Below, piece by piece: positions 3,389-9,740 of a stretch of DNA of 64,000 nt. Below the pieces are notes generated by a model. The model did not search any database. It was not told where the DNA came from and saw nothing but the letters and a program-made list of their open reading frames with translations. Source of the DNA: Candidatus Altimarinota bacterium (GTDB taxonomy: Bacteria; Patescibacteriota; Gracilibacteria; BD1-5; UBA6164); contig PDTW01000023.1 of NCBI GenBank assembly GCA_002749055.1, forward strand, positions 1 to 64,000, read 5' to 3'. The translations under genes were made by a program, and so were the position numbers. The first letter of the stretch is position 1. Every line of letters starts with the position of its first letter.

Positions 3389-5494
3389 CTACCTTTTTTT
3401 TCTTCCTTTTAATTCTAAAATTTTATCTCTAAGTTCTGCTGCTAATTCAAAATCCATATTTGAAGAAGCAATATCCATTTCTAATTCAAGTTTACTTATT
3501 TCTTTTTTAATATCTTTTATTTTTTCTTCTCTTCTATGTTTTTTTTGTGAATCTATTCATATATCTTTTATAGAACTAAAAACTGTTGTTGGGATAATTT
3601 TATTTTTTTTATTAAAATCACTTTGGATAGACCTTCTGTAATTTGTCAAATCTATAGCCTTTTTCATAGCATTTGATATAACAAGTCAACTTTCATTAAA
3701 GTACTTTCATTTGTCAAGAATATATAATCAATTTTTCTTTTTAGATTTATCAAAATCTTTTATTTTTTGAACATACATATAAACTTTTCACTCACTATTT
3801 CTAGCAGCTCTTCATATTATTTGAATCAAAGATGATTCGCTTCTTAAAAATCATTGTTTATCAGCATCAAGTATAGCAATTTTGGACACTTCTGGTAAAT
3901 CTAAACCTTCTCTTAATAAATTTACTCATACTATAACATCTATTCCTCATTCCCTTAATTCTTTCAAAATTTCTAGTCTTTCTAATGTATCGACTTCACT
4001 ATGTAAGTATTTTACCTTGACTCAATTTTCCATTAAATAATCAGCTAATTCTTCACTAGACCTTTTTGTAATTGTTGTAATAAGCATTCTTTGTCATTTT
4101 GAAATAACTTTATTTAAATTACCCATTATATCATCTACCATAAAATCCATTGGTCTAATAATAATTTCTGGATCTAGAAGTCAAGTTGGTCTAATAACTT
4201 GAGGAATTATTCTATTATTTTCATTAGTTATCCATGCTCAAACTTCTATCGGATTAAATTCAAAAAAATACTTCGGATTATCTGAGCTTTTCTCAATTTC
4301 ATAAGTTCATGGGGTAGCCGACACCGCTATCGTTTGCTTTAATTTATTTTCAAATTCTAAAAATTTTAGTGGTCTATTTTCCAAAGCTGAAGGAAGTCTA
4401 AATCAATTTTCAACAAGATTAGTTTTTCTTGCTCTATCTCAAGCATACATAGCTCAGATTTGAGGAATAGTCATATGAGATTCATCTATAAAACATAAAT
4501 AATCATCTCAAAAATAGTCCATAAGTGTATAAGGAGCTTCTCAAAGTTTTCTTCAATCTAAATAAGAAGAATAATTTTCTATTCAATTTACATATCAAAC
4601 TTCTTGCATCATTTCAATATCATATTCTACTTTTGTTTTTAATCTTTCATATTTTAAAACATCTCAATTTGACTTAAATGCTTCTAATCTTTTATCCAAC
4701 TCTTTTTGAATTTCCGGAATAATTTGTTTTATTTTTTCTTTTGATGTAACTGTATGTTTTGCTGGAAAAATATTTACTATATTTAAGTGTTCAAATATTT
4801 CTCATGTTAAATGGTTTCTCCTTGTTATTTCACTAACTTCATTTCACCAAAACTCAACTGTAAAAACAGAATCTTCACTTGATGGAAAGATTTCTAAAAC
4901 ATCTCACATAACTTGAAATGTTCATGGCTTAAAATCTGCTCATGCTCTTTTATATTGAAGGTCTACTAAATTTTTTAAAAGATTTTCTATAATATATTCT
5001 TTTCAAATTTCTATACTAAAAATAGCATCTGTATATGATTTAATATCTCAAATACCATAAATACAACTAACACTTGCAACTATTATTACATCTTTTCTTG
5101 TTAGTAAATCTTGTGTGGCAGCATGACGAAGTCTATCTATTTCTTCATTTATTGTTGCTTCTTTCTCTATGTAAGTATCAGTTTTGGAAACATATGCCTC
5201 TGGCTGATAATAATCATAATATGAAACAAAATAATGAACTGAATTATTAGGAAAAAACTCTTTGAATTCTTGAGCCAATTGAGCTGCAAGAGTTTTGTTA
5301 TGAGCTATTACAAGAGTTGGTTTTTGTTCTTTTTCAATTATATTTGCCATTGTAAAAGTTTTTCAGCTTCAAGTAACTCACCAAAGAGTTTGCCAATCAT
5401 ATCACAAGTCTAAATATTTAGTAATATTATTTATTGCATCGCCCTGATCTCACGAAGGAGAATATTCTGATTTTAAAACAAATTTTTTAGCCAT
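3389..5494 (-). CDS. uvrB: Excinuclease ABC subunit B
   Basis: 701 residues, close to the usual length of about 670. It carries Walker A (GVTGSGKTFT, residues about 40-50), the [11 protein letters not shown] beta-hairpin that clamps damaged DNA, Walker B with DESH, helicase motifs including RPTGLLDPEI and the QIIGRAARN motif VI, and a C-terminal UVR motif ([13 protein letters not shown]) for UvrC contact. UvrB verifies the lesion after loading by UvrA and recruits UvrC in nucleotide excision repair. Several in-frame TGA codons replace conserved glycines, including two in the P-loop region. The first ATG gives the expected [17 protein letters not shown] start. uvrA and uvrC are not in the window. 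Confidence 0.97.
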
Positions 5495-6635: not shown

Positions 6636-9600
6636 ATGAATAATGCATTTACAGATGCTATAAATAAATCAAGTGAATCTTGAGAAAATATCACAAGAGA
6701 GGAGTGGGAAAAGATAAAAAAAGACAAAGAAGTTATTTTATCTCAACTTGATAGTATAGACTCAATAGGATACTTTAACTCAATATACTGAGAATTAGAA
6801 AAAGCTTTTGAAAGCAATCTTAAAGAAGTTACTAGTTTTAGTAATGCTAAATTATTAGAATTAAGGCTACTTTTATGAGTTGAAAAGGTATGAACAGATT
6901 TTGAGATAATTGAGAATAATGAATGATTTATTCTTAGTGAATATAACAAAAATATATTAGAAGAAATATATAATAAATTTTGAGAGATTTGATTAGAAAA
7001 GGTGCATTGAATAGATTTAGATATTTTAAAAATAATTTATAATAATATTGATAATGTAACTTTAGATAATATTGAAAATATATATAAGTTAACTCAAAAT
7101 AGAGATATAAAACTTATAATTAACTATTTATTTCAAATAGAGTTATTTAGTTGGGATATTTTAGAGAATCTAGACTACTTAGAATTAAGTAATTTAACTG
7201 AACATTCATACATAATTGATATTATATCTAAAATAGAATGATTTAATTGGAATATTTTAGAAAACCTAGATTCTTGAGAATTAAATATTTTAACTGAACA
7301 TTCATACATAATTGATATTATATCTAGAATAGAATGATTTAATTGGGGTATTTTAGAAAACCTAGATTCTTGAGAATTAAATATTTTAAATGAATATTCA
7401 TACATAATTGATATTATATCTAAAATAGAATGATTTAATTGGAATATTTTAGAAAACCTAGATTCTTGAGAATTAAATATTTTAAATGAATATTCAGAAA
7501 TAGTTAATATTATATCTAAAATAAAATGATTTAGTCGGAATATTTTAAAAAACTTAGACTCTTGAGAATTAAGTAATTTAACTGAACACTCATACATAAT
7601 TGATATTATATCTAAAATAAAATGATTTAATTGGGGTATCCTAGAAAAACTTGATAATCATCAACTAGAAAACCTAAATAAATATTCATCTCTAACTTAT
7701 GCTTTATCTCAAATTGATTGATTTAATTGGAATATTTTTGGAAAACTTGATAATCATCAACTAGAAAACCTAAATAAATATTCATCTATAGCTTATGATT
7801 TATCTAAAATAGATTGATTCAATTGGAATATTTTAAAAAAACTTGATGACAACCAGTTAGAAAATTTAGATAAATATTCAACTCTAACTTATACTTTATC
7901 TCAAATTGATTGATTTAATTGGAATATTTTAAAAAAATTAGATGATTGAAAGCTAAAAAATTTAGATAAATATTCGTACGTAATTAAGTATTTATCTCAA
8001 ATTGATTGATTTAATTGGGATATTTTTGAAAAACTTGATAACCATAAATTAGAGAACTTAAATAAACATTTGTACATAATTAACTATCTATCTCAAATAG
8101 GTTGATTTAATTGGGATATTTTTGAAGAAATATTAAAATTATGAAAATTAAATGATTTAGATCCTTCTAAATTAGATTTATTTTTGAGAAAAGCTCTTCA
8201 GAAAAAAGATTTAATCTTTGCTGTTAACTATTTACTAGGAAATTTAAATAAAAGTGAGGTTTTAAGTTATTATAATAATAAGAGTAACAGTCCTAGAATA
8301 TTTAGTGCTATATTTGAAAGTAAAAAAGATGATATAATAAAATCAATTAATAGACTTCACGAACCTGTTGATGGTATGAACGAAGCACAAACTGTAGAAA
8401 AAAGAAAAGAGATAGCAAGTAATTTGTTAGATATAGAACTATTTAATTTAATATGATATTGATGAGAATTATATACATCAAGTTTTAGAGATATTTTAAT
8501 TCCTGAGTTAGTAAATAGGCTAAATAAAAGCAAAGTATGATTTATAGGATTTATAAAAACAGTTGATAAAAGTTGAGAGCAAACACTAAACTTTATTTCT
8601 GCAATCATAGAAAGATGAACTATTCAGAAATTTAATTTAAAAGAATGAGAGTTAGTAAAAGTTTTTGATTTAATCAAAAATGAAATATTTAAAAATAAGG
8701 AAAATTTAATAAAGTTTTCTTTATGATTAGAAAAATTATTTTCATTATGAAATAAAAAAGTAACAGAACATATCGTAAATGACTTAATAGATAAATATGA
8801 AAATTCTTGAGAAAATATTAAACAAGCAATAGAAGTAATATTTGTTTACTCCAAAGATAGACTTTGAAATATAGATTCTAATTTAAAAACAAAGGTAGAT
8901 ACTTATTTAAATAAATCTAAAGCAGATATTCAAGATTATTTGAGTATAAATTCTAATGAGTGGCTTAAAGATAATAAATTAGAAACAAAATCTGTATTTG
9001 TTTTTGATAGTGATTGAAAGTTAAGTTATCACTCTTTTTGTAGAGAATTACTTAGAAACTCTTATAAATTTGATATTAAGGAGAATATGCCTACTAAATT
9101 AAAATATATACTAGAAAAAATAAATAGTAGACATGATATAACTCAAGAAAAGTGGAAAAGTGAGAAAGATGAGGTTAAGGCAAGAAATAGATTAGTGGAA
9201 GAATTAGTTTTATTTATAAGTAATAATAAAAATATAGAAATAACTCTAACCAAAAAAGTTAATAATGTTGAAATAAAACATAATTTAAAAGTTTATACTA
9301 GCTCATCTAAAGATTTTATCAAGGATTATTTAAAATCTTGAAGTGAATGATATATACAAAGAGGACATTCATATAATAGAAGTGAATTAATAGATGAACA
9401 ACTATCAAGTTTAACAATTGAAGAAAAGAAAAAACTAAAATGACAATCTAATTTTGTATACCTTTGAAGTTGTTGATGAATGAATGATTATACAAAAGTA
9501 TCAGAGAGTTTTTGAAAAAAATCAGATATAACAGCTACTACTTGAACATGAACAATGTATATAAATAATCCTTATGTGAGGAGAGTTTTTGAATATATTG

Positions 9601-9740
9601 CTCAAAATAAGGGAAAGAAAATTACTTGGAAAGATGTTGCTGAAAATAAGAAAATAAAAGAAATTTTTTCTAGAGAATATGGAGAGGATTATGTAGTTCC
9701 TTGAAGTTTACCTCATTTATTGTTAAAACTTGATATTTAA
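6636..9740 (+). CDS. Large solenoid-repeat protein with C-terminal caspase-like (clan CD) domain
   Basis: 1034 residues, no signal peptide or membrane segment, so probably cytoplasmic. Residues 165-516 (7128-8183) are eleven tandem units of exactly 32 residues with consensus S.IDGFNWNILEKLD...LENLNKYS, predicted helical and solenoid-like. A helical linker follows (about 517-890). The end has QRGHSYN (His911) and FVYLGSCGG (Cys946), the His/Cys pair pattern of clan CD cysteine peptidases (RGHS ... GSCGG). In-frame TGA encodes the glycine in nearly every repeat. The domain order, recognition-type repeats plus a putative protease, resembles sensor-effector proteins, but that role is inference. 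The IMPACT-family gene follows after a hairpin. Confidence 0.65.
7128..8183 (+). repeat. Eleven tandem 96-bp coding repeats
   Basis: Eleven units of 96 bp without any indel. Units 2-5 (about 7224-7607) are near-identical in DNA and units 6-10 form a second subfamily, suggesting two rounds of duplication. Confidence 0.85.

Follow-up and report, generated by a model that had tools for sequence, protein, structure and literature searches.

The gene under study lies at positions 6636 to 9740 of the plus strand of contig PDTW01000023.1 (assembly GCA_002749055.1) from a Candidatus Altimarinota bacterium, of which the first 64,000 nucleotides were analysed (hereafter the window). Reading of the region with translation table 11 gave only short, broken open reading frames (ORFs) interrupted by TGA; with table 25, in which TGA encodes glycine, a single ORF of 1034 amino acids was obtained that contained 46 TGA codons read as glycine. 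Neighbouring genes also required table 25, for example that at 3389-5494, which was judged by eye to be UvrB-like and contained 35 TGA codons. The encoded protein comprises the following parts.

6636..9740, plus strand: whole gene, 1034 amino acids, genetic code 25
7140..8195, plus strand: eleven 32-residue repeat units, residues 169-520 (Tandem Repeats Finder and pattern; eleventh unit read directly)
8304..8939, plus strand: helical domain common to the family, residues 557-768 (alignment and AlphaFold2 model)
8976..9737, plus strand: C-terminal alpha/beta domain, enzyme-like, residues 781-1034 (alignment and models)
9006..9017, plus strand: DSDG, residues 791-794, the DxDG loop following the first strand
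9360..9371, plus strand: RGHS, residues 909-912, containing His911
9465..9479, plus strand: GSCGG, residues 944-948, containing Cys946 and three TGA glycines

RGHS with His911 and GSCGG with Cys946 were present where an earlier reading of the sequence alone (the sequence-only reading) had placed them. The GSCGG glycines (944, 947 and 948) are all encoded by TGA, and glycine occupies these positions in nearly all of the standard-code relatives described below; because of this conservation, the motif and the recoding of TGA as glycine support each other. Functional motifs of this kind in code-25 genes are invisible to standard-code annotation. No signal-like hydrophobic stretch was found in the first 70 residues, which makes the cytoplasmic location proposed earlier plausible for the window member; lacking an N-terminal signal in its sequence, this protein probably works inside the cell.

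A pattern search located ten repeat units at residues 169 through 457, with all nine spacings exactly 32 residues, and an eleventh, beginning at residue 489 (GGFNWDIF...), was read straight from the sequence. Tandem Repeats Finder independently reported a period of 96 bp, with 10.5 copies, 80% matches and a score of 877. The sequence-only reading had described eleven exact repeats; the count and period were upheld, but the units are not exact letter by letter, the mean pairwise protein identity being 58% (range 38-88%) and the mean DNA identity 76% (range 61-95%) in nine of the ten units. Selection among the repeats was purifying on average (mean dN 0.29, mean dS 0.61; 42 usable of 45 pairs). 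In the comparisons of units 2-3 and 3-4 (window 7236-7523) all 11 differences change an amino acid and none is silent. This pattern hints at a recent duplication of these units; the number of substitutions is too small for a test, and diversifying selection on units 2-4 is not claimed. A match of the repeats to the Pfam model Alpha_adaptin_C (E = 1.2e-8, 35.6 bits against a cut-off of 25.4) was discounted as a product of the repetition itself, since none of the matching stretches passed alone and the best one spanned 22 residues. The repeats probably form an alpha-helical solenoid; both of the AlphaFold2 predictions described below cover the C-terminal part.

Searches of Pfam, NCBIfam, PADLOC and PHROGs returned nothing credible for the C-terminal part of the window protein. 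The weak matches obtained (Pfam Cas9_a, E = 0.02; NCBIfam PRK10371, E = 0.013; PHROGs, E of at least 0.07) were below cut-offs or lacked a functional name. The PHROGs search covered the window protein, and the PADLOC search the window protein and ten neighbours. The window member is divergent, with 23% identity to the relative L027 and 18-26% to 50 others. A peptide-pattern search from this protein alone gave 69 stretches and no confirmed relatives, whereas a search from an alignment succeeded. When its last 225 residues were compared with 353 genomes of the window's class, 16 matched; loci L013-L016 (genomes G294, G135, G278 and G062) were dropped, since they were without an ORF bearing both motifs and were missed by the profile search. 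An alignment built from the remaining matches, A1 (14 sequences), was collinear with the window protein across approximately 470 residues. A scan of the genome collection with A1 gave 303 confirmed stretches, from which 78 distinct loci were kept; the scan pattern included HRGHS, so that motif conservation among these loci is by selection. By their record titles, the A1 relatives came from Peregrinibacteria/Peribacteria, Gracilibacteria, Moranbacteria, Giovannonibacteria, Paceibacterota, Omnitrophota, Saganbacteria, one delta proteobacterium and many Bacteroidota, mostly from metagenome bins in which contamination is possible.

A profile search without the HRGHS requirement matched 15 of the 353 class genomes, including the window's own. 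Both the His and the Cys were present in 17 of 18 profile matches from the class, the remaining one being cut by a contig end. In a sample of the phylum Bacteroidota 14 of 395 genomes matched the profile, and both residues were found in all 15 newly fetched places, with the neighbour of the Cys changed in two. The His preceded the Cys in 17/18 and 15/15 cases, respectively, in these motif-independent searches. Among 286 genomes drawn from the phylum of the window, two matched; both belong to its class, and one is the genome that contains the window. A tree was computed from 128 sequences reduced to 89 by dereplication. One branch (100/98) separated all 46 labelled Bacteroidota rows from the rest; long branches led to the window protein and to L217, and their joint position was flagged as unsafe. 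In Pfam scans of 14 and of 51 members the lowest E values were 0.012 and 0.0066, respectively, neither of them credible, and the open-access papers listed in searches for the two motifs and for caspase-like proteins in these bacteria included no description of the family. Within the literature searched, the family, which is unannotated in the scanned libraries, is undescribed, while similar designs are known.

The C-terminal part of the window protein (residues 557-1034) was predicted by AlphaFold2 with a predicted local distance difference test (pLDDT) value of 84.3 and a predicted template modelling score (pTM) of 0.83; the corresponding values for the domain of the relative L039 were 94.5 and 0.91. 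Alpha/beta enzymes build their active sites from residues that follow strand ends. In the L039 model the residues invariant in 63 sequences sit mostly in such places. DxDG follows the first strand; as assigned by DSSP, His94 of RGHS follows strand 88-91 and Cys117 of GSCG follows the next strand, 111-114, each three residues past the strand end; Gly142 lies four residues after the strand following that of the Cys. The other invariant residues (N, W, Y and P) are in helices or the tail. His and Cys follow successive strands in the same order in the window model. Clan CD peptidases are described as having a His then a Cys after neighbouring strands and as relying on this dyad only (PMC4357240). 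In that clan the two residues follow the C-terminal ends of strands 3 and 4 of the central sheet. The His-Cys spacing was 35 residues in the window member and 23 in relatives, compared with 26 in human separase and 42 in TPR-CHAT (residue numbers from PMC9729208).

Tentatively, and at somewhat under an even chance, we favour the alpha/beta domain being a cysteine endopeptidase arranged like those of clan CD, with the repeats controlling access or substrate. The same residues after strand ends would also suit a non-peptidase enzyme with a Rossmann-like fold, such as an amidase or another hydrolase or transferase that uses Cys-His or Cys-His-Asp, to which the repeats would be a scaffold; we regard this as doubtful but a substantial possibility. 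It could accommodate the extra Asp pair, for which the clan CD dyad, as described in PMC4357240, has no need. Structure and profile comparisons, which do not single out clan CD, also speak for it. Foldseek gave no match to the window model at E ≤ 0.001; in the VIA-align comparison of the same model, small GTPases scored on a par with separase, C11 and TPR-CHAT; and no clan CD chain was among the 50 VIA-align matches listed for the L039 model, which does not imply exclusion. On the other side, His then Cys after successive strands suits clan CD, clan CD members do appear, though tied, in the first VIA-align list, and the joined repeats resemble separase and TPR-CHAT. Of the sequence-only reading, the fusion of repeats to a domain whose conserved His and Cys follow successive strands was thus supported, while clan CD membership remains a proposal; for the window model, the structure comparison suggested there gave clan CD chains, tied with others, by VIA-align and none by Foldseek at E ≤ 0.001.

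Profile comparisons were carried out by hhalign with domains from genomes of the Chitinophaga genus, representing CHAT, C14 (including an empty row) and C25 (including a row of just 15 residues). Probabilities for the family against clan CD families were at most 7.6% (C14) and 1.3% (CHAT), and none of the three comparisons was significant; among the controls, CHAT-C14 reached 94%, and CHAT-C25 and C14-C25 6% each. The CHAT and C14 values exceeded those of 60/60 shuffled controls, while for C25 45/60 shuffles scored as high. The Pfam models CHAT (PF12770), C14 (PF00656) and C25 (PF01364) were not matched by the window protein at E ≤ 10 or by the 14 or 51 members at E ≤ 0.1. Ferritin matches of the A1 profile in Protein Data Bank (PDB) sequences (E = 0.011) disappeared with a larger alignment. 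The level VIA-align scores of Arf, Rab and Rag raise a nucleotide-binding, small-GTPase-like domain, which is highly improbable; Walker A, the P-loop GTPase motif GxxxxGK[ST], was absent from all 63 family sequences searched.

Among known systems, TPR-CHAT of type III-E CRISPR (Craspase) also joins helical repeats to a protease. It differs in its His-Cys spacing, in that the window protein and scanned members have no Pfam CHAT match, and in that the ten window neighbours show only weak or generic matches to CRISPR models. Separase likewise joins repeats to a protease; it is eukaryotic, and no credible match of the family to it was found in PDB sequence searches. No credible sequence match to C11 clostripain-type peptidases was found in PDB or Pfam searches, and C11 peptidases are not known to have repeats preceding the peptidase domain.

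The members have in common a C-terminal core consisting of the helical domain and the alpha/beta domain with its Cys-His pair, and vary in their N-terminal part. A repeat period with a lag identity of at least 0.13 was detected in 9 of 22 N-terminal regions (28, 30, 32, 35 and, in one, 57 residues); the other 13 had no outstanding period. Homologues with other repeat types, a search for which had been suggested, were found: in L217 (4916-7612, minus strand, genome G020, code 25) leucine-rich repeats precede the RGHS/GSCGG domain (LRR_8, E = 4.4e-10, above the curated cut-off). One further member, in an Omnitrophota bin (L044:1-7200), is at least 2400 amino acids long, open at the contig start, and has a HEAT-repeat match below the cut-off.

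As an endopeptidase of caspase-haemoglobinase-like layout, the alpha/beta domain would cleave peptides with Cys946 as nucleophile and His911 as base, and the Asp pair of the first loop might, speculatively, form a pocket that accepts a metal or a basic side chain. The repeats would be a docking or sensing arm that binds a partner and, by analogy with the helical repeats of separase and TPR-CHAT, gates the active site or recruits substrate. If the domain is a peptidase, a single catalytic core is paired with differing recognition arms, as in separase and TPR-CHAT, and a widespread, testable regulated protease is added to bacteria, culturable genera among them. A bolder proposal, which we consider rather unlikely, is a new cysteine protease family and possibly a new clan, not represented by any model in Pfam or NCBIfam. 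In it, a catalytic core with interchangeable arms (several types of tandem repeat, and leucine-rich repeats) would make bacterial receptor-proteases whose specificity shifts by repeat expansion, the Chitinophaga version being core and apparently exported.

The genus of Chitinophaga barathri had exactly one match in each of 60 sampled genomes, the dyads not being read individually. A family that is widespread and carries active-site-like residues is without annotation in the scanned libraries. Of 19 family genes inspected in Chitinophaga and its near kin, 18 had a divergent response-regulator gene within 2.5 kb. A simple hydropathy test, run from the first Met, a start choice that may be wrong, gave a signal-like hydrophobic N-terminus for 43 of 59 Bacteroidota proteins, and a few members from candidate phyla also had one. 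Because of this signal-like N-terminus and its status as a core gene, the Chitinophaga version is less likely to act in phage defence than in regulated processing at the cell envelope.

An immune-type sensor-effector, in which recognition of an invader by the repeats would unleash a harmful protease, would be compatible with the endopeptidase reading; we consider it improbable, that is, possible but not favoured. The patchy occurrence in the window's class (15/353 genomes), the varied arms, leucine-rich repeats included, the DNA identity of up to 95% between adjacent repeats, which points to recent expansion, and the functional analogue TPR-CHAT are in its favour. Against it, the single, core copy in Chitinophaga has a stable place near the divergent regulator, and no relative was confirmed among viral contigs (12 pattern matches) or phage records. 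The window neighbours encode a Na/Ca exchanger, UPF0029, NAGPA, DUF2130 and a hydrolase (five by Pfam) and the UvrB-like protein. In the PADLOC search of ten neighbours the best match (E = 1.7e-13) was generic helicase similarity of the UvrB-like protein, and three others matched weakly (ZorA, 2.2e-4; PDC-M01B, 0.0026; Cas11a, 0.0034); the window protein itself had one match, to PDC-M08B, on the repeats (E = 0.53). The comparison with defence-type proteins made in the sequence-only reading was not supported by these results. No gasdermin turned up in the Pfam scan of five neighbours, in which no gasdermin-aimed search was made.

The regulator beside L081, L083, L100 and others in Chitinophaga and near kin is of the PhoB type, and at some of these loci ATP synthase subunit genes (by eye) lie downstream. 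The N-termini of L038 and L040 contain VSSC and VSGC, which resemble a lipobox; sequence of this kind suggests that the family includes lipoproteins in candidate phyla. In 25 of the 78 loci another ORF with RGHS, no shorter than 100 amino acids, was present; usually the two lie on the same strand and measure about 1,020-1,220 and 700-815 amino acids. Exceptions were L052 (divergent), L084 (cut) and L053, which also lists an antisense ORF. L059:1843-7227 and L054:3571-9387 are examples of Bacteroidota loci with two such members in tandem, both bearing RGHS. Four Azospirillum megaplasmids hold relatives annotated as hypothetical, and all three that were read (L197, L198 and L199) have RGHS and GSCGG, two of them in the same ethanolamine/LysE/GGDEF neighbourhood.
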